NCBI GenBank assembly: GCA_028673005.1
Contig: CM054115.1
Location: 193,386,370 to 193,450,369, forward strand
Direction of reading: 5' to 3'
DNA from: Tanypteryx hageni
Taxonomy: Eukaryota > Arthropoda > Insecta > Odonata > Petaluridae
Length of the DNA: 64,000 nt
Every line of letters starts with the position of its first letter. Position 1 is the stretch's first letter. The translations under genes were made by a program, and so were the position numbers. Below the pieces are notes generated by a model. It saw nothing but the letters and a program-made list of their open reading frames with translations. It searched no databases and was not told the DNA's origin. This document shows, piece by piece, positions 13,004-57,877 of the stretch.

Positions 13004-13076
<73 letters not shown>
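13004..13076. repeat. (TA)n microsatellite
   Basis: About 73 bases of uninterrupted TA directly adjoin the start of a TA-linked repeat copy at 13,079. Confidence 0.98.
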
Positions 13077-13080
<4 letters not shown>

Positions 13081-13745
13081 AAGGAAAAGAAAATGTAGTG
13101 ATGAGGGTGGCAACAAGGTGTTGAGGGAAGCCCAGCGGACACTTACCAAGTTGGCAGGCTGCTGGGGGCGTCGAAGAGACACGTAAAACACAGGAACACA
13201 CAAAAACACAAATAAACACGCGAGCTTATCGGGCCTATGACCTTCTTCGGCGAACGAGTATCTGAAAGTGACACACTGGGCGGGGAAAGACAGGGTGATG
13301 TGGGAAGGTTGATGATTGGAGGAGATGGCGAGATGGGGAGTAGGAAGGGTGGATAGCCAATAAGGAAGGAGTGTGGTAAGGTAAAGTGCGAATAGTTACA
13401 ATGTAACAGAGGAGACATTGTAAGGGTGCTAATATGGTTAGCGGAGGTTGAGGCCAGGCGAGGAGAAAGAGTCAAGAAGATGTATATGTGCTATACTTCA
13501 ATTAACGAGAGTTGGGATTTGTGGAGGCGGAACTTAGAATGCGGAGTTGTCTAGACTTCTGCCGATTCCCCCTCCACCGCATTTCCACTCCATCCCCTCC
13601 ACTGTATTTCGCCCACCGCGCAGGCGTATATATAGTTCCCAGTGTAGGAGAAGGGGGGGTAGGAGTGTCATAGGGTAAGGCGCGAATAACCCTTACATTG
13701 TAGCAACTTTTGAAGGGGACATTGTGGGTATTGAAGATGATCCAA
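13077..13745 (-). mobile_element. Penelope-like/hammerhead repeat, copy P1
   Basis: This is the longest copy of a dispersed family (others at 29.6, 36.7, 38.5, 38.9 and 39.5 kb). On the plus strand it begins right at the TA tract with TTAAGGAAAAGAAAATGTAG, then gatgagggtggcaacaagg, and runs about 670 bases to ggggacattgtgggtatt. The minus strand contains a hammerhead-like core at 13,223-13,249 (here CCGAAGA replaces CTGAAGA) and the donor-like CTTGGTAAGT at 13,141-13,150. It holds about 150 bases (13,490-13,640) that are missing from copy P5. There is no reverse transcriptase frame. Assignment to Penelope-like elements is inferred from the hammerhead motif, the conserved donor and microsatellite targeting. 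Confidence 0.6.
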
Positions 13746-17189: not shown

Positions 17190-18698
17190 TGGAAAGGGAG
17201 ATATGACGTTGTATAAAAAATTGTACAAAAATTCATTTTCCAAAAACCGACGCACACTTTTTAGCATTCCACGGATATCCGCAGCACTTGGCACTGGCAA
17301 CATTCTGTCGTCATAATCATCTCCACTTTCACTACTATTTTAATTTTCTTTTGTTGCACTTGATTTAACAATGTCCACAATGTCACTGTCTGTTAAAAGT
17401 GGTGTAGTGGCAATATGGTCATCCACTGCTATATAATCATTCAGCGTGATTTCAGTTGTCAATCTCATTACAGACGACACGCGACCGAAGATATCGCACA
17501 ATTCACTTTCAGTAGATGTATTTACTCTAGTTTCCGTAGTCGATTCAGTTTCATCCTGTCCAGAAAACCTATCTGCTATTGGCGAAGAGGAAAATCCAGC
17601 GTGGCGAAAATAATTTTCGATTGTTTTCGCTGTAACTGACCTCCAAGCGGCATACAACAAATGCAAGGAATCCAAAAGAGTCACGGGCTTAATTTCCTCA
17701 TTTGATTCAGTACTAGATAAATATTTCTGGAGTAATAACTTCCGATAGTGGCATTTTAGATTTTTTATAATACCCTGGTCACATGGCTGCAATACGCTTG
17801 TTGTATTGTAGATGTAGATGTATTAGGCGGCAAAAAGATCAGTTTAATTGATTTCAGCAGTTCCACTTCTGGATGAGCAGGGCTGTTGTCGATAATTAAA
17901 GCTATTTTGCGCTTCTGGCATGAAAAGCGCTTGTCCAATGCCCTAACCCAATCTGTAAAAATGTTTCCCGTCATCCAAGCTTTTTTATTTGCGGTGTATT
18001 CCACGGGAAGCTTCTTTACATTCTTGAAGCAGCGAGGATTCAGAAATTTACCCACAAAAAACATCAGGATTTTTTCAGAACCGTCTGAATTGCAAGCCAC
18101 CATTACCGTAATGCGCTCTTTAGATTTCTTTCCACCAGAGCACTGCTCATTTTTAAAAGCTAAAGTTTTTTCTGGGAGGCAACAAAAAAAATTCCGGTTT
18201 CGTCAGCATTAAAAATGTCCTTAGGCGCAAAGTCTGTTAATAATTTAGGCAAAGTAGAAGTTACCCACTCTGATGTCATATCACGGAAGACGTCTCCCGA
18301 CTCGCCGGAAACAGTCTTAAAAATTATCCTATTCCTCACCTTGAACCGCTCCAACCATCCAGGACTAGACTTGAATTCAATTCCCAATTCTGATCCTAAA
18401 GCGTCAGTCTTTGCCATCAAAACAGGACCAGAAATTGGAGCATTCTGTCCTCTTGCTTGCTTAAACCAGATGATCAGCGCCGCTTCCAAATCCTCGTGCT
18501 TTGCCGTGCGTAGACGCTTCCGTTCCGGTTCAAACATGCATCTCTCAAACACAGATGTTGAAAATGAATTTCGAACTCTTTGCAGATGTCCGTTTTGGTT
18601 CTATCACCGTTATCAACCGCTTGTAGGAGGTGCATTTTCACTTTCAGCGGTATTACTTTTTGCTTACGCTATTTACCAGCCATTTTATGTGGGTCTTT
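17190..18698 (-). pseudogene. Tigger transposase (CENP-B HTH plus DDE domain), broken
   Basis: In order on the minus strand: second CENP-B DNA-binding domain (FEPERKRLRTAKHEDLEAALIIWFKQARGQ, then GWLERFKVRNRI); first catalytic Asp in IFNADETGIFF (about 18,205); after a one-base shift in the T run, PEKTLAFKNEQCSGGKK and ITVMVACNSDGSEKI; second Asp in KIALIIDNSPAHP (about 17,900); IKLIFLPPNT; then, beyond a 17-base insertion, QPCDQGIIKNLK with the third Asp. An in-frame TAA at 17,340 is followed by 40 more family-like residues (DRMLPVPSAADIRG). The catalytic triad is present in sequence, but the gene cannot give one protein. Confidence 0.85.
17803..17824 (+). mobile_element. 12-bp (GTAGAT)2 micro-insertion with 5-bp duplication
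   Basis: The transposase reading frame is interrupted by 17 extra bases: GTAGATGTAGAT (17,808-17,819) plus a second copy of GTATT (17,803-17,807 and 17,820-17,824). Taking out those 17 bases brings the third-Asp block of the transposase back into frame, so the insertion site is exact. GTAGAT repeats are the 3' tail of the CR1 elements in this window. Confidence 0.75.
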
Positions 18699-19700: not shown

Positions 19701-19796
19701 AAGGATCTACATCTACATCTACATTATACCTTGCAAGTCACCTTTTCGGTGGATGGCAGGGGGTGCAGTGCACCAAGGGTCCATAGTTTTCTTACG

Positions 19797-21812
19797 TCAT
19801 CTTTTTCTATTATGGTCTCTTATCGTCCTAGGGAAAAACGATCCTCTATATCGCTCCGTTCTGCAGTCAATCTCGCGAATCTTATCCTCACTGTCCTGCC
19901 TTCCGAAATACGTCGGGCTTCTGATAAGTCCTACTACCTCATTCGCTAGTCCCTCCGACATAAATTTTTCCAGTAGTTTAATTCTAGCCTGCAGCCTACG
20001 TTCCTCTAACGATGTCCATTTCAGATTTTCTATTAATGATGTTACGCTTTGTTTACTATCGTAATTCCTCTTTACAAATCTAGCTGCCCTGCGCTGAACC
20101 TTTTCTATCTCGTTAGTGAGTCCCTTTTCGTAAGGATCCAGCACAGCTGAAGCATATTCGACCTGCGGTCGAACCAAGGATAAATAGCATAATTCTTTCA
20201 CTTTTTCGGAGCTATTTCGAACTATTCTCCCTATAAAGGCCAGCTTTTTGTTAGCGGCACCTATCAATCGGCGAATGTGGGTGTCCCACGAGAGATCACG
20301 ATGGATCGTGACTCCGAGGTATTTAATCGAGTCTGAAACTGGAATCTCTACTCCGTCCAACGAATAATTATTATTCAACGAGATACTCTTGGTTCTCCAG
20401 AAGTTGATGACGCAGCTTTTCTTTTGGTTTATCTCTAACTGCCATTCCTTACACCATACAGAAATAGCTTCTAGGTCATTTTGGAGATACTGGTGGTCTT
20501 CTGGATTGCTTATTTCTCTATAGATGACGGTGTCGTCCGCGAAAAGCCTAATTTTACTTCTGACTACTGAGCTGATATCGTTTATATAAATTAGAAATAA
20601 TAACGGACCAATTACACTACCCTGTGGAACGCCAGAGACAACCTCCACTAAGTTCGAAGATTTCCCATCTATAACAACCTTCTGCTTCCTATGATTTAAA
20701 AATTCACGGATCCAACTAACGATTTTAGAATTTACGCCTAAGGTTTCTAATTTCGTTATTAACTTCCTGTGAGGTACCTTATCAAAGGCTTTCCTAAAAT
20801 CTAAGAAGATGGCATCGAGCTGCTTATTCTTTTCTCCGCTTCTCAGTAAACAATTAACAAAAAGACCGAGCTGAGTATCACATGACCTACCTTTCCTGAA
20901 GCCGTGTTGACAATCATCTAACAATAAATTACTATCAAGAAATCGCATTATGTTGCTAACGAGTATATGTTCGAGAATCTTACACGATATCGAAGTTAAA
21001 GAAATCGGCCTGTAATTTTCTGGGTTCTCCTTGTCTCCGCCCTTATGAATTGGGGTAACGTGCGCTAACCTCCAGTCGCTAGGGACCTCTGCGCGAGAAA
21101 TGGATTTCTCGAAGATTATCCGAAGAAAAGGTGCTATTTCTTCCGCTAATTCTTTTAAAACGCGAGCAGGAATTTCTTCGGGGCCAGTGGCTTTGTTATG
21201 TCTGATGGAACTTAATTGCTTTGCTATTCCCACCTCAGAAAATACTATATCGTCCATCAGCCCTCCCCCCCTTATTGCGGGTGCAACATGTACGCAATGG
21301 TCGCTGACGGCTGTGAATGCTTTTACAAAATGACCGTTTAACAGGTTGGCTTTCTCTACGCTATCATGAATAACGTCACCCGAGTCATTACGCAGGGAAG
21401 GTATTGTAGGGCCTCTACCTTGGACCTCTCTCACATAGGACCAAAACGCTTTAGGGTCTTCCTTCAAATAATTATTTAATACCTTATTCCGGAAGTTAGT
21501 AAAAGCCTCGCGCATAGTAGTTCTCGCTTTAGCGAGGGATTCCTTATACGTCTTAACTTTAGTTGCTCTATATTCATCGGATGATGTAGACGGCATATTT
21601 TTTATTTTCGCGTGGCATATTCTCTGACGCCTAAGCGCACTACTAACTTGCTTATTGTACCAACGTGGCTCTTTATTGTCGACCTTCGATTTAATTGGAA
21701 TGTACTTATCGATACTCTCTAGCATTATATCCTTGAATAGTTTCCATGACGACTCAGCACCTGATCGTTCGGTCATATCACGGAAACCAGGTAGTATTTC
21801 TCCTAGGCGCAC
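19797..21812 (-). CDS. CR1 ORF2, reverse transcriptase part (copy A)
   Basis: A 671-codon frame, without an ATG of its own, overlaps the end of the endonuclease frame. Residues 1-180 are the linker. The reverse transcriptase follows: SDWRLAHVTPIHKGGDK, NYRPISLTS, HGFRKGRSCDTQL, FLDFRKAFDKV (Asp 338), SGVPQGSVIGPLLFLIYIND and LFADDTVIYRE (Asp 426 and 427), then KYLGVTIHRDLSWDTHI and the RRAARFVKRNYDSKQSVT tail typical of CR1. It is uninterrupted to its stop at 19,797, with an intact active site. It would be a functional enzyme if joined to the endonuclease by a -1 shift. Confidence 0.9.
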   Translation of the reverse strand: MRLGEILPGFRDMTERSGAESSWKLFKDIMLESIDKYIPIKSKVDNKEPRWYNKQVSSALRRQRICHAKIKNMPSTSSDEYRATKVKTYKESLAKARTTMREAFTNFRNKVLNNYLKEDPKAFWSYVREVQGRGPTIPSLRNDSGDVIHDSVEKANLLNGHFVKAFTAVSDHCVHVAPAIRGGGLMDDIVFSEVGIAKQLSSIRHNKATGPEEIPARVLKELAEEIAPFLRIIFEKSISRAEVPSDWRLAHVTPIHKGGDKENPENYRPISLTSISCKILEHILVSNIMRFLDSNLLLDDCQHGFRKGRSCDTQLGLFVNCLLRSGEKNKQLDAIFLDFRKAFDKVPHRKLITKLETLGVNSKIVSWIREFLNHRKQKVVIDGKSSNLVEVVSGVPQGSVIGPLLFLIYINDISSVVRSKIRLFADDTVIYREISNPEDHQYLQNDLEAISVWCKEWQLEINQKKSCVINFWRTKSISLNNNYSLDGVEIPVSDSIKYLGVTIHRDLSWDTHIRRLIGAANKKLAFIGRIVRNSSEKVKELCYLSLVRPQVEYASAVLDPYEKGLTNEIEKVQRRAARFVKRNYDSKQSVTSLIENLKWTSLEERRLQARIKLLEKFMSEGLANEVVGLIRSPTYFGRQDSEDKIREIDCRTERYRGSFFPRTIRDHNRKR

Positions 21813-22813
21813 CTGAAGCTTGAAAAGTTTGCCCTAGCAAATATATTAAACTTTCTTTGAGGCTTAGGGTGCCTATCGATTTTCAACTTACACTCTGCAT
21901 ATACGGCCAAATGATCACTTATTCCATCTTCAATGGTGACGTTTATTTTTTCTGGGACGTAAGTTGCTAATAAATATAATATGTTTCCCAATCGCGTTGG
22001 CTTTCTGACTAATTGAAGGAGAGAGTGCTCGCAGAATGTTTCGATTAATGCCTCACAGGATTCGCGTTCTTTACCTCTAGATTCGAAACATAGATTTTCC
22101 CAATCAATTGAGTGTAAGTTAAAGTCACCACCGACTATAACGATACCATCTTGATTTATCAGTCTAAGCTTTGATAATTGTTTCTCGAGACTTAAAATAC
22201 AATCTACGCCAGCGTTAGGTGTCCTGTAAAACGAGCATATGAACACCTTTTTGGAGCCATCTTTACCTATGCGGCACCAAACACTCTCGATATCCTCGTC
22301 ACTTATCGGAATCTCACTGCTATCGTACTTATCGCTAACCGCTATGAAAACTCCCCCGCCCGATCTATTAGCGCGATCTTTTCTATAGACACGATAGTCT
22401 CTAGGAAATATCTCCTGACTCTGAATTTCATCCGTTAACCAACTTTCTGTGCCTATCACGACGTCGGCATGCAGACTGCGAATAACATGCTCGAACTCAG
22501 CAATTTTCCTACGGATGCTGCGACAGTTCAGTACGACGACGTTTAATTTCTCACTATCACTTCGCATGCTAATCTCACCCTTGACTTTCTCTTCCACTCT
22601 AAAACTACATGCGCTCCCACCACAATCACTCCCACGACTGTATGGCGTCGCATCAAAATTGGAATTGCGACCCGTCGCGCCCTTAACGGAACATTCTATC
22701 AATGACCTATCGCGAAATTGGTGCTGCATGTCACGCTCGGTGTATATTCTATCATTAGATAATCTTTCGGGATTCTTATTTTCTACAAATGCATCGATTA
22801 TCCCCTGACCCAA
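21803..22813 (-). CDS. CR1 ORF2, apurinic-like endonuclease part (copy A)
   Basis: The open frame of 336 codons has no ATG at its beginning; the first ATG is at 22,729 and another, MRSDSEKLNVVVLNCRS, immediately precedes the domain. It shows the endonuclease/exonuclease/phosphatase fold that nicks target DNA: LNVVVLNCRSIRRK (Asn motif), VIGTESWL (Glu), GGGVFIAVSDKY, VFICSFYRTPN, IVIVGGDFNLHSIDW (Asp-Phe-Asn) and the final ISDHLAVY (Ser-Asp-His). All catalytic motifs are present. The frame ends at 21,803 where the reverse transcriptase begins in the -1 frame. How ORF2 is initiated is unknown; reinitiation after ORF1 is one possibility. Confidence 0.85.
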   Translation of the reverse strand: MGQGIIDAFVENKNPERLSNDRIYTERDMQHQFRDRSLIECSVKGATGRNSNFDATPYSRGSDCGGSACSFRVEEKVKGEISMRSDSEKLNVVVLNCRSIRRKIAEFEHVIRSLHADVVIGTESWLTDEIQSQEIFPRDYRVYRKDRANRSGGGVFIAVSDKYDSSEIPISDEDIESVWCRIGKDGSKKVFICSFYRTPNAGVDCILSLEKQLSKLRLINQDGIVIVGGDFNLHSIDWENLCFESRGKERESCEALIETFCEHSLLQLVRKPTRLGNILYLLATYVPEKINVTIEDGISDHLAVYAECKLKIDRHPKPQRKFNIFARANFSSFRCA

Positions 22814-22839
22814 AACTGACCTACACCCTGCCCTACTCT

Positions 22840-23871
22840 CTAGCCTAAAAAATCCCTACTGTGCTCGAGAATCCTACTCGCTACTCTCTGAGCCGATTCG
22901 GGCGTGTAGTGAACACCAGAGTGATCCAGTGGTGCCCTGCACGATTCCATATTCGGTCGTAGGTCGACGAAGTCCACTCCCAAGTCCCGACAGAAATTCC
23001 ACAGCCTTCGGTTCAGACCTTCAACTCTACTCCAAACCTCAGAACCGCGGTCAATCCTAGGGACTATACTGCAGACAGTAAGCCGCACATCGGAACCCGA
23101 CTCCTCTCGGACACGAGCAACCTCAGAGGCCAAGGCCTTAAAAGAACTTAAAATCTCCTCGGACCCGCGCTTCGAGGCGTCGTTAGTCCCAACATGGGCC
23201 ACCACCCGCAGCCGAGAGCAACCTGTCGCCACTACCGCTTCTCTCCCCGTGTTGGTCACTTGCGGCATCGTGCCTACTGATATACATCTGGAGAAGACCC
23301 GCTCTTCAACTCCCTCCCGGCGGGCACTGGATAACAGGGGTGCCTTTACACGCCGAACGTTAGAGCTACCTAACACTAACAACCCTCCCTTCCCAACCCG
23401 ACTCCCCTTGGGCCCGGCCTCCATCGAAGAGACGGGAGTGGGTACGGGCGCAATGGCCGTGGAGTCGTCCTCCGACAACACCTCGAACCTATTACTGACA
23501 GGAAGCGAGTCCGCCGAAGCATTCCCAACTCCCTGCCTCCGCAGCACCACCCCACGATCTCCCCGAGTGGACACCACTCTCCACTCATCGGATTTCCCAG
23601 CCCGAGGACCCTCAGCCCGCGGTAAGGAGTCAGAGTCAACCCCGATCACTCTACCGGCTGCCGCACCCAGGCGAACCCGGGCCGCCAATTTGGCGCGGCG
23701 AGCTTTCAGGGATGACCCCGCACCCCCCACACGAACCAAGGCTGCCTCGGACCTTTCCACCCTCTGAAGGAGGTCCGCAACTACCCTCTCCAGCTCCGTG
23801 ATTCGAGCCCTCATGGCCTCGCAACCAGCGGCGCACAAGAAGGAGGAAACGGGAGTCCTCGGTGAAGCCAT
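22840..23871 (-). CDS. CR1 ORF1 protein with SGNH esterase domain (copy A)
   Basis: An intact 343-residue frame. I start it at ATG 23,871 (MASPRTPVSS), which has A at -3 and G at +4; the open frame extends 18 codons upstream without an earlier ATG. Residues 19-48 form an amphipathic, probably coiled-coil segment (ITELERVVADLLQRVERSEA). Residues 50-160 are basic and low in order. The rest is an SGNH/GDSL hydrolase fold: block I LLVLGSSNVRRV (Ser 169 or 170, with Asp of GDS replaced), block III VAHVGTND (228-231) and block V DHSGVH (316-321, Asp-x-x-His). In CR1 elements ORF1 binds element RNA, and its esterase may act on lipid or membranes; that role is inferred. The stop lies 27 bases upstream of the ORF2 open frame. 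Confidence 0.88.
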   Translation of the reverse strand: MASPRTPVSSFLCAAGCEAMRARITELERVVADLLQRVERSEAALVRVGGAGSSLKARRAKLAARVRLGAAAGRVIGVDSDSLPRAEGPRAGKSDEWRVVSTRGDRGVVLRRQGVGNASADSLPVSNRFEVLSEDDSTAIAPVPTPVSSMEAGPKGSRVGKGGLLVLGSSNVRRVKAPLLSSARREGVEERVFSRCISVGTMPQVTNTGREAVVATGCSRLRVVAHVGTNDASKRGSEEILSSFKALASEVARVREESGSDVRLTVCSIVPRIDRGSEVWSRVEGLNRRLWNFCRDLGVDFVDLRPNMESCRAPLDHSGVHYTPESAQRVASRILEHSRDFLG

Positions 23872-24494
23872 CCTAAACTTACCTAATTTATATACTAACG
23901 CAAAAGAGTTACAATATAAAAACAAAAGCTGAAATGGGATAAGGCTAAAGAATTTGGTCTGTTTTAAAGCGGGGACGCTCTTCGTGTAGCGTACGAGAAA
24001 GGGTCAAGCGCAGGTATAAAGTGAAAGGCGTAAACAACACAAACAAGGTTAGATCACGCACAGGAGATGATAGTACACAACAACGAAAAATATAAATACT
24101 ATGGAGCGTAAAACTAAAACAACCTTACAAATGTAACGAGAATATGCTAATACACAATAACTACTATGATATAAATATTATTTTGTAAAAGGGAGAATGA
24201 AATTTCTAACAAGAAACTACGAGGCTTAAAAGTTAACTATTACGGTAGAGGAAAATAAAAACTATAACGTGGATGTTATAACAAAACTAATTACATAACT
24301 TAAACGAATGTTAAATAAAATTACCGAAGGATAACAATAGAATAAAGTAAATTGTTAGTTCTACTTAACACTACAGCTACTCTAATGCTACAGCTACTCT
24401 AGTCGCTCGAGGCTACGTAGGAGATCGCAGGAGCAAGTGAAAGGCACGTCCGTTCACTTCAACAGCCAGGTAAAGACTCGCCAGGTAAAGGATC

Positions 24495-25546: not shown

Positions 25547-27435
25547 ATGTCCTCTTCATTGTCATCAGATGCCGAAGAAAAAAAAATAGAGGTTAAATCA
25601 AGAGAAGAAAAAGAAGAAAAAACATCAGAATTATTTCAACGAGGAGTGGCAGGGACTTACGCCTGGGTGATTAAAGGAAGAACTGCTGGTAAAGCAAAAT
25701 GTGTATGGTGCAATTGTGAATTTTTCATAGTAAATGGAGGTGTTTATGACCTTAAAAAGCATATGCTAGGTAATAAGCTTAAAAAAGGGAAAGCATTAGC
25801 TAGTAATAATCAAACTTTGAATTTATTTTTCATTTCTTCGGCGACGTCATTAGTTTCGACTGAAGAACAAAAGATTGTTGCCGCAGAAGCTACGTTTGCC
25901 TATCACACAGTGAAACATGCGCATAGCTATCGATCATCGGATTGCATGAGTTCATTATTCAAAACATTATTTAGTGATTGAAAAATCGCTTCTCAATTGA
26001 CATGCGCGCGAACAAAAATATCTAAAATAATAACAAATGTTTTAGCAAAAGACTGCGTATCTAAAGTTGTCGAGAATTTAAAAGAAAATCATCCATTTTC
26101 AATTGCAACAGATTCGTCAAATAAAGGGAACATTAAAATGTTTCCCTTAATGTGTAGATATTTTTCTAAATCTAGTGGGGGAGTTCAAACAAAACTTTTG
26201 AGTTTCTGTAACAGCCAGTCAGAAACTTCAAATGATATTTCACTTTGCTTACTTCAAAAGTTGAAGGGGCTGAATTTAAATCCCGAGAACATTGTTAGTT
26301 TTTGCGGTGATAATGCTAATGTAAATTTTGGTATTAATCAGAGTGTATTTACAGAATTTAAGAAATTTAATAAGGATTTAATAGATATGGGGTGTCTGCC
26401 ATGTCTTACACAATGTAACAAGAAAAGCTACAAGCTGTTTAGAAGTTGATATAGAATGTATAATTTTAAAAACATATAATGAATTTAGTTCACATAGTAA
26501 AAGGTTAGAAAATTTAAAAGAACATTACGAATTTTTCGATCTAGAATATTCAGACCTAATGCGTCACGTTCCTACAAGATGGTTGCGCTCCTTCCAGCAG
26601 TAGATAGGCTAAACAAAAATTTTGAGCAAGTGTAAACTATTTTCTATCTTTGGAAAGATGTCCACCTATTTTGCGATATTTTTTTTCTAACGAATTAGCT
26701 GATGCCTACCTTTCTTTCTTTTCAAATGCAGCAACCTGTGTCCAAAACGCAATTTGTAATCTAGAGCAGGATGGTCCAATTATAATAGAACTATTTAACT
26801 TAATGTTCAATCTAAGAAACTCTCTACTTGCTAAATTAAATGATCATTTTTATGGATTCGTTGCTATACAAAAATTGAAATCTTGTCGCAACCCAGTAGA
26901 GATAAATGTGTTTAAGAAAAGAGCAGACGATTTTCTGAAAACTTTAATTCAGTACATTGAAAAAAGATTTAGTTTTGAAAATAATAAGTATGAGTATCTA
27001 AATATATTCAAACTACATGAAGTGTCACATTTTGATCTTTTCTTAAAAGTTATAGATTTATTTAAAATTTCCAATATTAATATTGGTTTGCTATATGAAG
27101 AGTACGTCCTGTTCCATAAAAATACTAACACAAAAGAACTCAAAAATATCACAGATATTTGGATAAAATTTTTAAATGCATACGATGTACCTAATATAGA
27201 AAAAATTATTAATTTTGTTTTTGCTTTGCCTCACTCAAATGCAATGAGTGAGCGAGTATTTAACTTAATGCTCAACTCTTGGAAAAAGAATAGGAAGAGA
27301 TTAGACCTAAAAACTGTTGAGGGAGAATTACTGGTGAAAACCAATTACAATATGTCTTGCAAAGAATTTTATGCAGTTGTATTAAAAAATGAAAAATTGC
27401 TAAAAGAAATTCGCTCAAATGAAGAATATTGTTAG
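25547..27435 (+). pseudogene. BED-finger hAT transposase, nearly complete but broken
   Basis: It starts at ATG 25,547 (MSSSLSSDAEE). An acidic lead is followed by a BED-type zinc finger: YAWVIKGRTAGKAKCVWCNCEF with Cys-x-x-Cys and a DLKKHM helix; the last His is not evident. An in-frame TGA at 25,979 interrupts the gene, which resumes in the same frame: TDSSNKGNIKMFPLMCRYF (first Asp), then VSFCGDNANVNFG (second Asp). A frame change near 26,420 leads to DLMRHVPTRWL, and another near 26,620 to ERCPPILRYFFSNE. The C-terminal hAT dimerisation region ALPHSNAMSERVFNLMLNSWKKNRKRLDLKTVEG (about 27,222-27,325) is intact. It has at least one nonsense codon and two frameshifts, so it is inactive. Terminal repeats were not found. 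Confidence 0.8.

Positions 27436-29591: not shown

Positions 29592-29631
<40 letters not shown>
29592..29631. repeat. (TA)n microsatellite
   Basis: About 40 bases of TA directly border the repeat copy that follows. Confidence 0.97.
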
Positions 29632-29634
<3 letters not shown>

Positions 29635-29935
29635 ATAAGGCAAAGAAAAGGTAGTGATGAGGGTGGCAACAAGGTGTTGAGGGAAGCCCAGCGGACACTT
29701 ACCAAGTTAGGGACCAAGTTGGCAGGCTGCTGTGGGAGTCGAAGAGACACGTAAAACACACGAACACAAAAAACACGCATGCTTATCGGGCCTTCTTCAG
29801 CGAAAGAGTATCTGAAAGTGACACACTGGGCGGGGAATGACAGGGTGATGTGGGAAGGTAGATGATTGGAGGAGGCGGGGAGTAGGTAGAGTGGATAGCC
29901 AATAAGGAGGGAGTGTGGTAAGGTAAAGTCTGGAT
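29632..29935 (-). mobile_element. Penelope-like/hammerhead repeat, copy P2
   Basis: Begins at the TA tract (AAACATAAGGCAAAGAAAAGG) and follows copy P1 for about 300 bases, ending at about 29,935 where unrelated sequence starts. The minus strand has the donor-like CTTGGTAAGT at about 29,696-29,705. At 29,781-29,800 it has the core CTGAAGAAGGCCCGATAAGC, in which the hairpin loop has been lost. It carries a 12-base local duplication (ttagggaccaag) relative to P1. Confidence 0.6.
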
Positions 29936-29981
29936 ATCTCCTCCGATGATCGCTGACAACCTGCAGAAGAAATTGCTTTTG

Positions 29982-31330: not shown

Positions 31331-31546
31331 AAGGTTCTGTAACGTTCTGGACAGTTCTAGATTGTTCCAAAAGACCTGATATGGACTATTACTTAACACA
31401 AAGAGTGCTCCTGCAAGTGGACTTACGCAGGATTTCTGAAAGGTACATCTGGAAGGTTATATCTATTGCAGTATTGCTTAACATTGACCAATGGGTGCTG
31501 CATCACAATTTTCAATATTAAGTATTTACAATTCACAGTTCCATTC
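31331..31546. other. Short spacer
   Basis: Nothing recognised. It ends at the tail of CR1 copy B, whose flank differs from that of copy A. Confidence 0.4.
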
Positions 31547-31632
31547 ATCTACATCTACATTATACTCTGCAAGTGACCTTTTTGGCGGATGGCAGGGGGT
31601 GCAGTGCACCAAGGGTCCATAGTTTTCCTACG

Positions 31633-33636
31633 TTATCTTTTCCTATTATGATCTCTTATTGTCCTAGGGAAAAACGATCCTCTATATCGCTCCGTTCTAC
31701 AGTCGATCTCGCGAATCTTATCCTCACTGTCCTGCCTTCCGTTATACGTCGGGCTTCTGATAAGTCCTACTACCTCATTCGCTAGTCCCTCCGACATAAA
31801 TTTTTCCAGTAGTTTAATTCTAGCCTGCAGCCTACGTTCCTCTAACGATGTCCATTTCAGATTTTCTATTAATGATGTTACGCTTTGTTTACTATCGTAA
31901 TTCCTCTTTACAAATCTAGCTGCCCTGCGCTGAACCTTTTCTATCTCGTTAGTGAGTCCCTTTTCGTAAGGATCCCACACAGCTGAAGCATATTCGACCT
32001 GCGGTCGAACCAAGGATAAATAGCATAATTCTTTCACTTTTTCGGAGCTATTTCGAACTATTCTCCCTATAAAGGCCAGCTTTTTGTTAGCGGCACCTAT
32101 CAATCGGCGAATGTGGGTGTCCCACGAGAGATCACGATGGATCGTGACTCCGAGGTATTTAATCGAGTCTGAAACTGGAATCTCTACTCCGTCCAACGAA
32201 TAATTAATATCCAACGAGATACTCTTGGATTTCCATAAGATGAAGACGCAGTTTTTCTTTTGGTTTATCTCTAACTGCCATTCCTTACACCATACAGAAA
32301 TAGCTTCTAGGTCATTTTGGAGATACTGGTGGTCTTCCGGATTGCTTATTTCTCTATAGATGCCGTCCGCGAAAAGCCTAATTTTACTTCTGACTACTAA
32401 GCTGATATCGGTTATATAAATTAGAAATAATAATGGACCAATTACACTACCCTGCGGAACGCCAGAGACAACCTCCACTAAGTTCGAAGATTTCCCATCC
32501 AAAACAACATTCTGATTCCTATGATTTAAAAATTCACGGATCCAACTGACGATTTTAGAATTAACGCCTAAGGTTTCTAATTTCGTTATTAACTTCCTGT
32601 AAGCTACCTTATCAAAAGCTTTCCTAAAATCTACGAAGATGGCATCGACCTGCGTATTCTTTTCTCCGCTTCTCAGTAAACAATTAACAAAAAGACCGAG
32701 CTGAGTATCACGACCTACCTTTCCTGAAGCCGTGTTGACAATCATCTAACAATAAATTACTATCAAGAAATCGCATTATGTTGCTAACAAGTATATGCTC
32801 GAGAATCTTACACGATATCGAAGTTAAAGAAATCGGACTGTAATTTTTTGGGTTCTCCTTGTCTCCGCCCTTATGAATTGAGGTAACGTGCGCTAACCTC
32901 CAGTCGCTAGGGACCTCTGCGCGAGAAATGGATTTCTCGAAGAATATCCGAATAAAAGGTGCTATTTCTTCAGCTAATTCTTTTAAAACGCGAACAGGAA
33001 TTTCTTCGAGGCCAGTGGCTTTGTTATGTCTGATAAAACTTAATTGCTTTGCTATTCCCACCTCAGAAAATACTATATCGTCCATCAGGCCCCCCCTTAT
33101 TGCGGGTGCATAATGTACGCAATGGTTGCTGACGGCTGTGAATGCTTTTACAAAATGACCGTTTAACAGGTTGGCTTTCTCTACGCTATCATGAATACCG
33201 GCACACGAATCATTACGCAGGGAAGGTGTGTTAGAGACTCTACCTTGGACCTCTCTCGCATAGGACCAAGACGCTTTAGGGTCCTCCTTCAAATAATTAT
33301 TAATACCTTATTCCGGAAGTTAGTAACAGCCTCGCCCATAGTATTTCTCGCTTTAGCGCGGGATTTCTCATACGCCTGAACTTTAGTTGCTCTATATTCT
33401 TCGGATGATTTAGACGGCATATTTTTTATTTTCGCGTGGCTTATTCTCTGACGTCTATGCGCACTCCTAACTTGCTTATTGTACCAACGTGACTCTTTAT
33501 TGTCGACCTTCGATTTAATTGGAATGTACTTATCGATACTCTCTAGCATTATATCCTTGAATAGTTTCCATGACGACTCAGCACCTGATCGTTCGGTCAT
33601 ATCACGGAAACCAGGTAGTATTTCTCCTAGGCGCAC
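31633..33636 (-). pseudogene. CR1 ORF2 reverse transcriptase (copy B), active site deleted
   Basis: Three overlapping frames (33,636-33,289, 33,292-32,708 and 32,745-31,633) together match the reverse transcriptase of copy A. Breaks occur where one base is missing in the AATTATTAAT stretch near 33,299 and where bases are missing at the end of HGFRKGRS near 32,712. The catalytic loop reads LFADGIYRE in place of LFADDTVIYRE: a 6-base deletion near 32,364 removes the second active-site Asp. The copy is therefore catalytically dead independently of the frameshifts. Confidence 0.88.
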
Positions 33637-34635
33637 CTGAAGCTTGAAAAGTTTGCCCTAGCAAATATATTAAACTTTCTTTGAGGCTTAGGGTGCCTAT
33701 CGATTTTCAACTTACACTCTGCATATACGGCCAAATGATCACTTATTCCATCTTCAATGGTGACGTTTATTTTTTCTGGGACGTAAGTTGCTAATAAATA
33801 TAATATGTTTCCCGATCGCGTTGGCATTCTGACTACTTCAAGGAGAGAGTGCTCGCAGAATGTTTCGATTAATGCCTCACAGGATTCGCGTTCTTTACCT
33901 CTAGATTCGAAACATAGGTTTTCCTAATCAATTGAGTGTAAGTTAAAGTCACCACCGACTATAACGATTCCATCTTGATTTATCAGTCTAAGCTTTGATA
34001 GTTGTTTTTCGAGACTTAAAATACAATCTACACCAGCGTTAGGTGGCCAGTAAAACGAGCATATACACCTCTTTGGAGCCATCTTTACCTATGCGGCACC
34101 AAACACTCTCGATATCCTCGTCACTTATCGGAATCTCACTGCTATCGTACTTATCGCTAACCGCTATGAAAACTCCCCCGCCCGATCTATTAGCGCGATC
34201 TTTTCTATAGACACGATAGTCTCTAGGAAATATCTCCTGACTCTGAATCTCATCCGTTAACCATCTTTCTATGCCTATCACGAAGTCGGCATGCAGACTG
34301 CGAATAATATGCTCGAACTCAGCAATTTTCCTACGGATGCTGCGACAGTTCAGTACGACGACGTTTAATTTCTCACTATCACTTCGCATACTAATCTCAC
34401 CCTTGACTTTCTCTTCCACTCTAAAACTACATGCGCTCCCATCACAATCACTCCCACGACTGTATGGCGTCGCATCAAAATTGGAGTTGAGACCCGTCGC
34501 GCTCTTTACGGAACATTCTATCAATGACCTATCGCGAAATTGGTGCTGTATGTTACGCTCGGAGTATATTCTATCATTAGATAATATTTCGGGATTCTTA
34601 TCTTCTACAAACGCATCGATTATCCCCTGACCCAA
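33627..34635 (-). pseudogene. CR1 ORF2 endonuclease (copy B), frameshifted
   Basis: The frame follows copy A through LNVVVLNCRSIRRK, VIGIERWL (copy A has VIGTESWL; the catalytic Glu is kept) and GGGVFIAVSDKY. It shifts at about 34,060 after IGKDGSKEV, so the FYRTPN and GGDFNLHS blocks fall in other frames, and it reopens from 33,827 to 33,627 through ISDHLAVY. It ends with the same NFSSFRCA and stop as copy A at the junction to the reverse transcriptase. Confidence 0.8.
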
Positions 34636-34661
34636 AACCGACCTACACCCTGCCCTACTCT

Positions 34662-35693
34662 CTAGCCTAAAAAATCTCTACTGTGCTCGAGAATCCTACT
34701 CGCTACTCTCTGAGCCGATTCGGGTGTGTAGTGAACACCAGAGTGATCCAGTGGTGCCCTGCACGATTCCATATTCGGTCGTAGGTCGACGAAGTCCACT
34801 CCCAAGTCCCGACAGAAATTCCACAGCCTTCGGTTCAGACCTTCAACTCTACTCCAAACCTCAGAACCGCGGTCAATCCTAGGGACTATACTGCAGACAG
34901 TAAGCCGCACATCGGAACCCGGCTCCTCTCGGACACGAGCAACCTCAGAGGCCAAGTCCTTAAAAGAACTTAAAATCTCCTCGGACCCGCGCTTCGAGGC
35001 GTCGTTAGTCCCAACATGGGCCAACACCCGCAGCCGAGAGCAACCTGTCGCCACTACCGCTTCTCTCACCGTGTTGGTCACTTGCAGCACCGTGCCTCCT
35101 GATATACATCTGGAGAAGACCCGCTCTTCAACTCCCTCCCGGCGGGCACTGGATAACAGGGGTGCCATTACACGCCGAACGTTAGAGCTAACTAACACTA
35201 ACAACCCTTCCTTCCCAACCCGACTCCCCTTGGGCCCGGTCTCCATCGAAGAGACGGGAGTGGGTACGGGCTCAACGGCCGTGGAGTCGTCCTCCGACAA
35301 CACCTCGAACCTTTTACCGACAGGAAGGGGGTCCGCCGAATCATTCCCATCTCCCTGCCTCCTCAGCACCACCCCACAATCTCCCCGAGTGGATTTCACT
35401 CTCCACTCATCGGATTTCCCAGCCCGAGGACCCTCAGCCCGCGGTAAGAAGTCAGAATCATCCCCGATTGCTCTACCGGCTACCGCACCCAGGCGAACCC
35501 TGGCCGCCAATTTGGCACGGCGAGCTTTCGTGGATGACCCCGCACCCCCCACACGAACCAAGGCTGCCTCGGACCTTTTCACCCTCTGAAGTAGGTCCGA
35601 AACCACCCTCTCCTGCCCCGTGATTCGAGCCCTCATGGCCTCGCAACCAGCGGCGCACAAGAAGGAGGAAACGGGAGTCCTCGGTGAAGCCAT
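34662..35693 (-). CDS. CR1 ORF1 protein with SGNH esterase domain (copy B)
   Basis: An open 343-residue frame starting at the same ATG context as copy A (MASPRTPVSS). The coiled-coil-like segment, AHVGTND and the DHSGVH block are all kept. Block I reads LLVLVSSNVRRV, so the Gly before the catalytic Ser region has become Val, in addition to the family's lack of the GDS Asp. The frame is uninterrupted although ORF2 of this copy is dead. This shows either recent insertion or chance survival. Confidence 0.82.
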   Translation of the reverse strand: MASPRTPVSSFLCAAGCEAMRARITGQERVVSDLLQRVKRSEAALVRVGGAGSSTKARRAKLAARVRLGAVAGRAIGDDSDFLPRAEGPRAGKSDEWRVKSTRGDCGVVLRRQGDGNDSADPLPVGKRFEVLSEDDSTAVEPVPTPVSSMETGPKGSRVGKEGLLVLVSSNVRRVMAPLLSSARREGVEERVFSRCISGGTVLQVTNTVREAVVATGCSRLRVLAHVGTNDASKRGSEEILSSFKDLASEVARVREEPGSDVRLTVCSIVPRIDRGSEVWSRVEGLNRRLWNFCRDLGVDFVDLRPNMESCRAPLDHSGVHYTPESAQRVASRILEHSRDFLG

Positions 35694-35910
35694 CCTAAAC
35701 TTACCTAATTTATATACTAACGCAAAAGAATTACAATGTAAAAACAAAAGCTGAAATGGAATAAGGCTAAAGAATTTGGTCTGTTTTAAAGCGGGGACGC
35801 TCTTTGTGTAGCGTACGAGAAAGGGTCAAACGCAGGTATAAAGTGAAAGGCGTAAACAACACAAACAAGGTTAGATCACGCACAGGAGATGATTGTACCC
35901 AACAACGAAA

Positions 35911-36083
35911 AATACATCTACATCTTCATATTACCCTGCAAGTCACCTTGACGGTGGATGGCAGGGGGTGCCGCGCACCAAGTTCCTTACTAATTATTAT
36001 TCATTTATCTATTGTGGTCACGTATTGTCCTAGGGAAAAATGACTCCTTATACCTCTCCGTCCTACTATCTATTTCGCGAATA
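35911..36083 (-). mobile_element. Nested 5'-truncated CR1 tail (165 bp) inside CR1 copy B
   Basis: Copy A reads straight through this point. Copy B has 165 extra bases beginning with (CATCTA)n-like tail and the CR1 3' sequence (ccctgcaagtcaccttgacg, then gtggatggcagggggtg), ending in ctatttcgcg. AATA flanks both sides (35,911-35,914 and 36,080-36,083). The inserted sequence is a diverged relative of the copy A and B 3' ends, so a different CR1 subfamily member inserted here. Confidence 0.85.
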
Positions 36084-36449
36084 TAAATACCATGGAGCGT
36101 AAAAATAAAACAACAACAAATGTAACGAGAATATACTAATACACAACAACTACTATGATATAAATATTATTTTCTAAAGGGGAGAATGAAATTTCTAACA
36201 AGAAACTACGAGGCTAAAAAGTTAACTATTACGGTAGAGAAAATAAAAACTATAACGTGGATATTATAACAAAACTAATTACATACCTTAAACGAATGTT
36301 AAAAAAAATTACCGAAGGAAAACAATAGAATAAAGTAAATTGTTAGTTCTACTTATCACTACAGCTACTCTAGTCGCTCGAGGCTACGTAGGAGCTCGCA
36401 GGAGCAAGTGAAAGGCACGTCCGTTCACTTCGACAGCCAGGTAAAGACA

Positions 36450-36655
36450 AATAAGTTGAAAATGTAAACTAATTTAAAAATGAGTGCACCTATGTTTAGC
36501 ATTATGATATATTGCGATTTTTCAGATCTTGGTAGCGACCCCTAAATATTATTGAAAACTAACTTAATTTTACCAAAACTATTTTTTTAATAATGGAACA
36601 GATTCAAAACGTGCCCCCTCCAGTTTTCCAAAGCTTAAAAATAAGGACCACCCTA
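36450..36655. other. Short spacer
   Basis: Nothing recognised between CR1 copy B and the microsatellite cluster. Confidence 0.4.
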
Positions 36656-36758
36656 ATATATATATATATATATATATGGATGTCAACAAGGTGTTGGGAT
36701 GGGATCTGTTCTCTCTCTGTAGCTGATGAAGGAATAATTCCGAAAGCTTCTACGTTTG

Positions 36759-36817
<59 letters not shown>
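36656..36817 (+). mobile_element. Penelope-like/hammerhead repeat, copy P3 (short, between two TA tracts)
   Basis: Only about 84 bases (36,678-36,761) separate two TA microsatellites (36,656-36,677 and 36,762-36,817). The first part (atggatgtcaacaaggtgttg) matches the plus strand of the start of copy P4. The second part (ctgtagctgatgaaggaata onward) matches the minus strand of the other end of P4. The copy is therefore an inverted junction of the two ends of the element. It contains the best hammerhead core in the window. Confidence 0.65.
36718..36754 (+). ncRNA. Hammerhead-ribozyme-like motif (Penelope type)
   Basis: The RNA can be drawn with helix I TGTAG/CTACG (36,718-36,722 with 36,750-36,754, one G-U pair), core CTGATGA (36,723-36,729), helix II GGAA/TTCC closed by TAA (36,731-36,741), core GAAA (36,742-36,745), then GC and UU. 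Cleavage would be expected after U 36,749. The layout has almost no helix III, as reported for Penelope-associated hammerheads. One unpaired A (36,730) between the core and helix II is atypical. Self-cleavage is a prediction. Confidence 0.55.
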
Positions 36818-38039: not shown

Positions 38040-38240
38040 GGCCCCAGAGAGAGCGAGAGGGTCCAAGAGAGAGAGAGAGAGAAGGAGAGAGAGGGAGTGA
38101 GAGAGAGGGAGGGAGAGAGAGGGAGAGAGAGAGGGGGAGGGGGAGAGAGGGAGGGAAAGAGGGGGAAGGAGAGAGAGGGAGGGAGAGAGACGGAGAGAGA
38201 GAGAGAGAGGGAGAGAGAGGGAGGGAACGAGGGGGAAGAG
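38040..38240. repeat. (GA)n-rich purine tract
   Basis: About 200 bases of GAGAGA and GAGGGA with very few pyrimidines on the plus strand. Frames through it are Arg/Glu or Ser/Leu/Pro low-complexity artefacts. Confidence 0.95.

Positions 38241-38460: not shown

Positions 38461-38489
<29 letters not shown>
38461..38489. repeat. (TA)n microsatellite
   Basis: About 29 bases of TA immediately before repeat copy P4. Confidence 0.97.
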
Positions 38490-38721
38490 ACAGCTTACGG
38501 AAAAGGAAAAGTAAAATGGATATATGGATGGCAACGAGATGTTGGGATGAGGAAGCCCAGTGAACACTCACCAATCGGACGACTTCAGGTTGGCGAGGCC
38601 CTGGGGATGTCGAAGCGATACATGTAAAAGAACACTAAGACAGCACAGAAACATCACAAACGTAGAAGCTTTCGGAGTTATTCCTTCTTCAGCTGCCGAG
38701 AGAGACATCTATATATTTATA
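38490..38721 (-). mobile_element. Penelope-like/hammerhead repeat, copy P4 (second subfamily)
   Basis: About 220 bases between a TA tract and a TG/GC tract. It has the same architecture as P1, P2 and P5 but is strongly diverged: ggaaaaggaaaagtaaaatg start, ggatggcaacgagatgttgg, donor-like TTGGTGAGTG on the minus strand (about 38,564-38,573), gtcgaagcgatacatgtaaa, and a hammerhead core at 38,670-38,692. On the minus strand the core is CTGAAGA, hairpin GGAATAACTCC, GAAA. Position 7 of the core (U or A) is known to be variable in hammerheads, so the core is intact. Helix I is only partly paired. Confidence 0.6.
38670..38692 (-). ncRNA. Hammerhead-like core in copy P4
   Basis: The minus strand reads CTGAAGA, A, GGA-ATAAC-TCC hairpin, GAAA, GC, TT. 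The conserved core bases are all present. The candidate helix I strands GGCAG and CTACG pair at three of five positions. It is probably a degenerate version of the motif at 36.7 kb. Confidence 0.4.
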
Positions 38722-38815
38722 TGCGTGTGTGCGCGTGTGCGCGTGTGCGCGTGTGCGCGTGTGCGCGTGTGCGCGTGTGCGCGTGTGCGCGTGTGCGCGT
38801 GTGTGCGTGTGTGCG

Positions 38816-38878
<63 letters not shown>
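38722..38878. repeat. (TGTGCGCG)n / (TG)n microsatellite
   Basis: About 100 bases of GTGTGCGC units grade into about 55 bases of pure TG. This alternating purine-pyrimidine tract is prone to form Z-DNA. It lies exactly between repeat copies P4 and P5. Confidence 0.97.
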
Positions 38879-38880
<2 letters not shown>

Positions 38881-39440
38881 ACTAAAGGAAAAGAAAAGGT
38901 AGTGATGAGGGTGGCAACAAGGTGTTGAGGGAAGCCCAGCGGACACTCACCAAGTTGAGGACCAAGCTGGCAGGCTGCTGGGGGCGTCGAAGAGACACGT
39001 AAAACACACGAACACAAAAACACACGCAAGCTTATCGGGCCTATGCCCTTCTTCAGCGAAAGAGTAACGTAAAGTGAAACACTGGGCGGGGAATGACAGG
39101 GTGATGTGGGAAGGTTGATGATTGGAGGAGGTGGGGAGTAAGAGGGGTGGATAGCCAATAAAGAGGGAGTGTGATGAGGTAGAGTGCGAATAGTTACAAA
39201 GTAACAAGGAGACATTGTAAGGGGGCTAATAGGGTTAGCGGAGGTTGAGGCCAGGCGGAGAGAAAGAGTCGAGAAGATGGATATGTGCTAGTTCCCAGTG
39301 TCGGAGAAGGGGGGCAGGAGTGTCATAGGGTAAAGCGCGAATAATCCTAACATTGTAGCAACTATTGAAGGGGACATTGTGGGTATTAGCATGTAATGCA
39401 ACTGGGAGGGGGCGTCTGAGAGAAACGCTAATCCGGTGAC
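38879..39440 (-). mobile_element. Penelope-like/hammerhead repeat, copy P5
   Basis: It starts at the end of the TG tract (TTAACTAAAGGAAAAGAAAAGG) and follows P1 closely, but lacks the 150-base block found in P1 at 13,490-13,640. The minus strand has donor-like CTTGGTGAGTGTCC (about 38,944-38,953) and the core CTGAAGAAGGGCATAGGCCC at 39,037-39,056 followed by GATAAGC. The helix II sequence (GGGC/GCCC) differs from that of P3 (GGAA/TTCC) while keeping its pairing. Confidence 0.62.
39030..39056 (-). ncRNA. Hammerhead-like core in copy P5
   Basis: The minus strand reads CTGAAGA, A, GGGC-ATAG-GCCC, then GATAA in place of GAAA, then GC TT. The extra U in the second core segment would be expected to weaken or abolish cleavage. 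Helix II is fully paired. Confidence 0.35.
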
Positions 39441-39444
39441 CGTT

Positions 39445-39454
39445 CATTTCTTTA

Positions 39455-39512
<58 letters not shown>

Positions 39513-39522
39513 TAAAGAAATG
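39445..39522. repeat. 78-bp palindrome with (TA)n centre
   Basis: CATTTCTTTAAGTTTA at 39,445-39,460 is the exact reverse complement of TAAACTTAAAGAAATG at 39,507-39,522, and the DNA between is pure TA. The right arm is the beginning of repeat copy P6, so the left arm is the same element end in the opposite orientation. Confidence 0.9.
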
Positions 39523-39582
39523 AAAAGGTAGTGATGAGAGTGGCAACAAGGTGTTGAAGGAAGCCCAGCGGACACTTACCAA

Positions 39583-39583
<1 letters not shown>
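39507..39583 (-). mobile_element. Penelope-like/hammerhead repeat, copy P6 (truncated)
   Basis: Only the first about 75 bases of the family are present (taaacttaaagaaatgaaaa through gatgagagtggcaacaagg to cggacacttaccaag). The sequence stops exactly at the donor-like CTTGGTAAGT and runs into the TA tract at 39,584. Confidence 0.6.

Positions 39584-39635
<52 letters not shown>
39584..39635. repeat. (AT)n microsatellite
   Basis: About 52 bases of alternating AT closing the microsatellite cluster. Confidence 0.97.
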
Positions 39636-54759: not shown

Positions 54760-55605
54760 TTAATCGTCCGTCCCGGACGATGACAGGTCATCCTCCATGT
54801 CTCGGTAGAACCCTCTCCATGGCTTCATGTTCTCTGCTACGGCGGAAGTGTGTCCTGGACCCTCATGGCTACCAACCTTCTCCACATCATAGCGGTCCTT
54901 AGGGTACACCTTTGTGATTCGGTAAGGTCCCAGGAACTTGTTCCTCAACTTCAGGCCTGCTCCAAACTGCGTCCTCTTCACCGCCACTATGTCACCCACC
55001 TCATACTTTGTGGCCTCCTTTCGTCTGCGATTGAAGCTCCGTCTATTCTCCTCCTGGACCCTTGCAATGGCTTCCTTGGCCCGCTTATGCAGGTCATTCC
55101 TTGCCCCTGTAAAAGAGGTACGCATCTCCTCCTCAATTATCTCCTGCAGTTCGACATTCTCTGGATTCCTCATCATCGTCCCCATTAAAAGTTCAAATGG
55201 GGTGGTGCCAATGGACCGTTGGGGTGTGCTGTTCACTGCCCGCTGCACCCGACTTATTGACTTGAACCACTTCAATGGCTCCTCTGCAGACAGCTTCGCG
55301 AAGACAGCCACCAGGATACTCTGCATCCTCTCTACCTGACCATTCCCTCTTGGCACACCTGTCGTAATGGTGAAATGTTTAATATTCCCCTCCTGGCAAT
55401 ATTGCTCAAACTCCTCAGCCATAAATGCCTTGTTGCGATCCGTAGTGATCCGCCTTGGATTACCAAAAGTTTGCTGGTGGACCCTCAGCTTCTCTAGCAC
55501 ATCTGCCGTTTCCAACGTCTTAGTCGCAAAGAGCCAGGCAAACTTAGTAAATGCATCCACAAGCACAAGGAGGTACTTGTAGCACTTTTTAGTTGATGGC
55601 AATGG
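54760..55605 (-). pseudogene. Pol: integrase core and C-terminal domain (gypsy type)
   Basis: Following the frameshift, the integrase catalytic core shows YLLVLVDAFTKFAWLF, ITTDRNKAFMAEEFEQY and GVPRGNGQVERM. The D, D and E of the D,D-35-E triad are therefore present, although the first Asp motif of the core (HIDHLG) lies just before the shift. A C-terminal domain follows with YEVGDIVAVKRTQFGAGLKLRNKFLGPYRI (GPY/F motif), which binds DNA near the LTR ends. The frame runs uninterrupted to its stop at 54,760. Confidence 0.88.
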
Positions 55606-56279
55606 CCCAAATGATCTATATGTAACATGTCTAAAGGGAGGTCTTCTTTTGGAATAGGGTTCAGGAAACCCTCCACCTTTCCTTGCTTTCTAGCTGCCAA
55701 TATGCATGGAATGCAGTTTTGGATATACTTCTTTATCTTTTTCTCCATCTTATTCATCCAGTACTGCCTCCCAATCATTCTCATTGTCTTCTTGATGCCA
55801 AAGTGTCCTGTGTCATGGGACCTCTGAATAATCTCCCACTCCATACCTTTCGGGATGACTAGTCTCTGTACTCCACCTTCTTCCTTGTAAAGTAAATCTC
55901 CCCTCAGCAAAAAATCATCAAATGTTCCACCTCCACGTAGGACCACCTTAATTGCCTTTAGTCCTTTGTCCCCATTCTGCGCCCTGTCTACTCGGTCCAG
56001 CAGCACATCCCGTAAAGCAAGCACATAGGGATATCTGCTCAGGGCATCAACATGCCTCATTCTCGTCCCAGCCCGGTGCTCGACCTCGTAATCGAACTGT
56101 TCTAGCTCCATTACCCATCTTGTGACCTTAGGTGCTAGGCTGTCCTTCTTAAGGGTTTGTTCAAATGCCTCACAGTCTGTGATGATCTTAAAGTGGATTC
56201 CAAGCAAATACACCCGGAACTTCTGCACTGCTTTTACCACAGCCAACACCTCCAACTGGTAGCTGTGAAGCTTCTTCTC
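55600..56279 (-). pseudogene. Pol: rest of RNase H and integrase zinc domain (gypsy type)
   Basis: In the same frame as the segment before it: EVLAVVKAVQKFRVYLLG, FKIITDCEAFEQTL, HRAGTRMRHVDALSRYP (RNase H end and tether). The integrase N-terminal zinc domain follows, HDTGHFGIKKTMRMIGRQYW then CIPCILAARK, giving the His-His-Cys-Cys set. After DMLHIDHLG, at about 55,606, the frame is lost by the apparent absence of one C in a short C run; the integrase core continues in the next frame. Confidence 0.87.
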
Positions 56280-56282
56280 TGC

Positions 56283-57806: not shown

Positions 57807-57877
57807 ACCTGCTCTATCAGTGCTCTTTTCTACATGGAAAACATCCCGTTGACCACCACTCGAAGGCGAACCTGGGC

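Follow-up and report, generated by a model that had tools for sequence, protein, structure and literature searches.

A stretch of 64,000 nucleotides from the odonate Tanypteryx hageni (hereafter the window) holds, between two TA microsatellites, a short sequence with the elements of a hammerhead ribozyme. This locus raises the question of whether the motif is a genuine hammerhead, which mobile element carries it, and which form of the RNA of that element, cut or uncut at the motif, is inserted into the genome.

Anatomy of the motif and its expectation by chance

The motif and its immediate surroundings comprise the following features.

36718..36754, plus strand: minimal hammerhead motif in type I order, identified from the sequence, a descriptor scan and the linkage of its copies to a Penelope-like element (PLE)
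36709..36759, plus strand: sense arm of a Penelope-like element, matching copy B (below) and 40 scored genome copies
36676..36701, plus strand: left arm, repeating the element's own 3′ end in inverted orientation and facing the sense arm head-to-head
36655..36677: (TA)n microsatellite to the left of the motif
36760..36817: (TA)n microsatellite to the right of the motif

CUGANGA, GAAA and UH are present in the order of a type I hammerhead. Stem I (UGUAG/CUACG, 5 bp, 36718-36722 with 36750-36754, the outermost pair being U-G) encloses C3 to A9 (CUGAUGA, 36723-36729), one extra A at 36730 between CUGAUGA and stem II, stem II itself (GGAA/UUCC, 4 bp, 36731-36734 with 36738-36741, loop UAA), G12 to A15.1 (GAAA, 36742-36745), GC (36746-36747), U16.1 (36748) and U17 (36749), and cleavage is predicted after 36749. 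The core, its coordinates and this predicted cut are as the preliminary description of the locus gave them. H17 is U in the window motif, which we count against our preferred reading. Stem III is absent, and A-G-C-U (36745-36748) forms a 4-nt palindrome that could pair only with a second copy.

The extra A and a tiny helix III had been named at the outset as reasons for caution; both have published precedents, with the amendment that there is no stem III at all here. According to two reports, helix III is missing from PLE hammerheads (PMC6155905, PMC7761336). The plus-strand hammerhead of Chrysanthemum chlorotic mottle viroid (CChMVd) likewise has one unpaired A between A9 and G10.1, and this extra A after A9 comes with a moderate loss of rate, although that is a viroid ribozyme and not one of a retroelement (PMC3705267). 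Among the type I hammerheads of axolotl and newt, according to PMC7229834, HHR_Amex1 is similar in having a one-pair stem III with a palindromic loop and in working better as a dimer, whereas these ribozymes differ in their retrozyme or satellite context and their loop-loop contacts.

The frequency of such a motif was estimated with a descriptor composed after the motif had been seen; in its loose form (stem I of at least 4 pairs, stem II of at least 3, 0-1 extra nt, and 2-19 nt between A15.1 and U16.1) it gave 0.01 matches per shuffled 64-kb window on both strands (400 shuffles), and in its strict form none in 400 window shuffles. Stems I (5 pairs) and II (4 pairs) can form, and the minimum-energy fold holds both, with 4 of 5 stem I pairs in a 37-mer and all 5 in a 51-mer; the fold energies are unremarkable (37-mer, z -1.70, 17 of 200 shuffles as good; 51-mer, z 0.00, 98 of 200). 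The idea that a dimer is favoured by energy was dropped, as an explicit double hammerhead came to -10.5 kcal/mol versus -12.0 kcal/mol for two monomers. An Rfam scan of the whole window returned no match at the gathering level, no hammerhead family reaching its threshold, and a search of 701 nt and one of 61 nt listed no hammerhead family at E values as high as 10. Rfam hammerhead models expect three stems. Pattern scans of viral contigs and genome contigs gave no matches, the search for relatives in viral contigs confirmed none, and a PDB search gave no matches.

Genome copies and their link to a Penelope-like protein

Immediately 3′ of the predicted cut stands a 28-base sequence with 2,351 exact occurrences (1,195 + 1,156) in the 1.68-Gb genome; the reversed 28-mer, the control, does not occur. 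The first 30 copies of the 28-mer were read in chromosome order, a selection made without the arm. A longer upstream stretch was present in 13 of the 30, and the end of a PLE frame lay directly upstream in 11, with at least 280 residues in seven (L065, L069, L070, L075, L076, L080 and L084) and shorter pieces in four (L057, L072, L073 and L079); in the remaining two copies with a long upstream stretch, a frame end was not found. The frame contains YIDD and ends in NIIYLLRCTQCPAFYVG...SFTPPGLNLR with a GIY-YIG-like end, which Pfam scored as GIY-YIG with E values of 0.0024 and 0.003, short of its cut-off; Pfam did not call RVT_1 on the four frame pieces scanned. Many of 40 database relatives of the L065 frame carry RVT_1, several carry GIY-YIG and two carry both, and YIDD together with the RVT_1 relatives (best E 3.1e-89) marks a reverse transcriptase in the frame. 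The motif follows the stop codon by 142 nt in L065 and by 178 nt in window copy E.

The further copies in the window are listed here.

38480..38706, minus strand: copy B, a member of the same family that has body and tail; C3 of its hammerhead at 38692, CTGAAGA
39238..39447, minus strand: copy E, C-terminal end of a Penelope-like protein (MNGHR...SPPGLNLR, stop TAA)
38876..39237, minus strand: copy E, downstream of the frame, degenerate hammerhead (C3 at 39056) and 3′ tail beside a repeat
13070..13500, minus strand: copy C, related, degenerate hammerhead-like site (C3 at 13250)
29628..29960, minus strand: copy D, related, hammerhead-like site that has lost stem II (C3 at 29800)
39505..39590, minus strand: fragment F, tail only, between two (TA)n arrays

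The C-terminus in copy E shares 50 of 70 residues with L065. We take the element to be Penelope-like because the frame end lies upstream of copies, because the relatives of the frame have RVT_1 or GIY-YIG, and because the same C-terminus is found in the window; the assignment draws on partial copies, with the motif on one side of the frame. Copy B (38705-38656) is 92% identical to the window sense arm over 50 nt, and its motif has four differences, two breaking stem I, one breaking the fourth stem II pair and one at N7. The sites in copies E, C and D, which are more diverged, are degenerate, that of copy E reading CTGAAGA...GATAA with at most 2 stem I pairs. The motif is thus broken in all of the sisters B, E, C and D, and this is also counted against the preferred reading. 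The window copy itself, whose sense arm lacks its 3′ part after TTTGT, is a truncated remnant without body and 3′ tail.

Several other features of the window were recorded. A perfect 82-nt palindrome (39443-39524; two 41-nt arms with a TA repeat in the middle) joins copies E and F and may stem either from insertion or from the assembly, and GA-rich and GTGTGTGC arrays adjoin copy B (38066-38226, 38727-38877). Two copies of a non-LTR retrotransposon (19710-24384 and 31546-36372), with pieces 93-98% alike, lie ~11.8-12.0 kb apart with the reverse transcriptase frame on the minus strand. There are also remains of a DDE_1 transposon (17343-17822), of a hAT element (26626-27432) and of a long-terminal-repeat-type polyprotein (RVT_1, RNase H, rve; 54763-57926). 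Of at least 120 relatives found for one protein of the window, the minority that carry a species name come from arthropods.

The architecture of the insertions was read from copies found with the 86-nt unit, which gave 791 candidates in its own 1.68-Gb assembly; 40 were scored, and all 40 matched. As this query contained the left arm, the presence of the arm was selected for in these copies and the TATA spacing is biased too. In these, a sense arm starting at or near TTCTCTCTCTG stands head-to-head with part of the element's 3′ end in inverted orientation; this part varies in length, reaches 0-14 nt past GTTGGG and is joined with 0-10 extra nt at the junction. These 'filler' nucleotides were at first sight random, a reading rejected since some equal the upstream sequence CCATCAG. 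A window copy that is a one-off chimera was likewise ruled out, as its type of junction recurs among the genome copies. Two alternative 3′ end sites are used, ~40 nt apart as measured in L002 (element length 216 nt), and the left/right ends were A/B(tail) in 31 copies, B/A in 4, B/B in 1 and A/A in 1, with three, including the window copy, unresolved. Exactly one end is therefore tailed in 35 of the 37 resolvable copies (31 A/B and 4 B/A), the other three being left out. A TATA box lies 29-41 nt upstream of the RNA start in 39 of the 40, a spacing biased by the arm-holding query, and (TA)n adjoins most tabulated genome copies as it does the window copy.

According to PMC3846280, insertions of Penelope contain a partial, inverted pLTR and may carry a tail, and the 40 copies, chosen with an arm-holding query, have this architecture. 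That source also describes Pen2a_Av of Adineta vaga with an inverted, shortened pLTR on its 5′ side and a 31-bp tail at one inverted end, as here, but with a complete-length ORF in the insert, which the short copies here do not have (PMC3846280). The architecture also fits two-strand priming at internal RNA sites, as found in vitro for PAc (Poseidon of Anolis carolinensis), a PLE that cleaves AT-rich DNA, extends both strands from internal sites and has its tail between two reverse-transcription start sites (PMC11167929). PAc differs in that its frame starts at stem II and the cut falls 26 bp into the frame (PMC11167929), whereas here the motif follows the frame's stop codon in the copies read, and the motif's own ATG in the window copy meets a stop after three codons.

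Two unusual arrangements were seen among the loci read. L087 (G000:C1:37081800-37082800) has three tandem hammerheads with a 79-nt period plus one inverted, the only such array noticed, and L061-L064 and L089 are head-to-head long-arm pairs with two facing hammerhead sites or parts thereof.

Sequence variation and 5′ ends of the copies

The complete motif was present in 16 of the 30 ordered copies, a set in which the 28-mer itself fixes the 3′ strand of stem I, and in 35 of 40 similar copies; its loss in 14 and 5 copies, respectively, weighs against the preferred reading. L052, L053, L055 and L056 share the same change that shortens stem I, and the ribozyme of this subfamily was apparently already damaged when it spread.

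Variation was counted in 59 closely related copies in which 36 nt or more upstream are preserved. PMC10085705 gives N7 as the unconstrained position of CUGANGA; here it was T in 40, A in 17 and C in 2; the 11 other core sites counted had 8 differences in 649, and the extra A was kept in all 59. Variability was highest at N7, in loop II and at the fourth pair of stem II (A-U 17, G-U 26, unpaired A-C 14, others 2). This pattern, with N7 free, the extra A constant and the core kept, fits a hammerhead. The first ten sites after the 28-mer are as constant as the core (4 differences in 590), so core conservation does not by itself indicate selection, and the youth of the copies may explain it. The claim that the core is more strongly conserved than its neighbours was dropped on this ground; a downstream difference of 6.6% and its P of 0 are figures inflated by insertion/deletion shifts. 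Pair counting in 16 distinct copies gave 91.4% paired cells. Other copies with compensatory changes had been proposed as a check of the motif, and of these two the copies proved numerous and the changes almost absent: among copies too alike, covariation beyond shuffles was not found, the single compensatory cell being reached by 239 of 500 shuffles. An apparent better preservation of hammerheads beside a long upstream stretch (11/13 versus 5/17 in the first 30) was lost in the larger set, where the hammerhead was kept in 12/17 long-stretch copies versus 33/42 with at least 36 nt (38/64 of all others).

In order to read the 5′ ends, 81 distinct occurrences of the 28-mer among the 2,351 were examined, all within the initial 50 Mb of contig C1; they form part, not all, of the first 100 listed places. 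None of these 81 copies begins at the predicted cut. Seventeen extend at least 80 nt upstream of it; the remaining 64 include 29 that start 41-46 nt upstream (most commonly at 43, 15 copies) and 18 that end within 32 nt upstream, and 45 of the 64 have a recognisable inverted arm. In many short copies, ~14 nt separate the 5′ end from the motif. Position 43 upstream corresponds to the A of TCAGTT in longer copies, and because TCAGTT resembles the arthropod initiator, this base is probably the RNA start. With no copy beginning at the cut and 29 of 64 starting 41-46 nt upstream of it, the examined copies therefore derive from RNA that had stayed uncut at this hammerhead. The lack of copies at the cut site among the 81 accords with the in vitro result for PAc, in which unprocessed RNA is the dominant template (PMC11167929).

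Competing readings and the RNA that is inserted

The motif is very probably the minimal hammerhead of a Penelope-like retrotransposon, lying in a truncated insertion within a TA microsatellite, with a putative catalytic activity. Its identity as a PLE hammerhead by descent and anatomy is very likely, and the Penelope-type assignment of the preliminary description is supported by the genome copies, which link the same sequence to a Penelope-like element. Under this reading the RNA would start near TCAGTTCTC, which would place the hammerhead at nt ~10-50, and cleavage after U17 would, as in other PLEs, be weak for a single motif because stem III is absent. Pairing of two copies through AGCU, or help from the PLE protein, may improve it. 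At insertion, copying of the RNA would begin at internal sites on both of the cut strands, and the template would mostly be RNA uncut at this site. The PAc hammerhead needs protein (PMC11167929).

Dimer cleavage has a parallel among relatives of the motif: Lunse, Weinberg and Breaker are said to have described, in 2017, small PLE-associated hammerhead variants with a diminished stem III that cleave as dimers. The diminished stem III and the Penelope association are shared, and AGCU could pair between copies here; activity is reported for tested members of that group, whereas the present motif is known from sequence.

A hammerhead sequence that is inherited and needed but no longer cuts, acting as a hairpin or as a protein-binding or start element of the PLE RNA, is possible, though we think it unlikely. 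It would account for the lack of 5′ ends at the cut, for the recurrence of copies with broken stems and for the normal insertion in vitro of PAc hammerhead mutants (PMC11167929); a protein site does not, however, predict that the most variable positions are those that a hammerhead tolerates, as is the case in these closely related copies.

Far less probable is a non-autonomous metazoan retrozyme, in which tandem type I hammerhead units spread as RNA circles. Short elements such as L002 exist and L087 is a tandem array, but it is the single tandem locus noticed; tandem monomers bounded by hammerhead cuts were, L087 aside, not found in the loci read, the copies end at 3′ sites beside TA repeats and not at hammerhead cuts, and 11 of 30 adjoin a PLE frame. 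The inverted ends of ~30 nt flanked by TA would suit a DNA transposon or MITE that has terminal inverted repeats and duplicates its TA target, yet the varying left arm and junction, the tail usually at one end and the PLE frame upstream in part of the copies make such an origin most improbable. A chance match in AT-rich DNA, for which the shortness of the motif and the missing Rfam hit could be cited, is refuted by the copies (40 of 40 scored), by the link to a PLE and by the rarity of the motif in shuffles, and can be set aside.

The hammerhead of a mobile Penelope-type element with many genome copies, for which self-cleavage is predicted, is thus the supported reading of this stretch. A more speculative extension, to which we give a low probability, is that the short copies form a self-sustaining non-autonomous branch, in which the inverted 3′ piece and the TA repeat rebuild a promoter, the strands are primed at two RNA sites, and the 5′-terminal hammerhead serves a step other than template processing.

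The locus shows that an Rfam scan can leave a hammerhead-like motif unreported; the motif is real and ordinary for its kind, and the data are useful on which RNA gets inserted. What PLE hammerheads do is unknown according to PMC7761336, and the many copies in this genome, some with a PLE frame and many short, provide material for that question.
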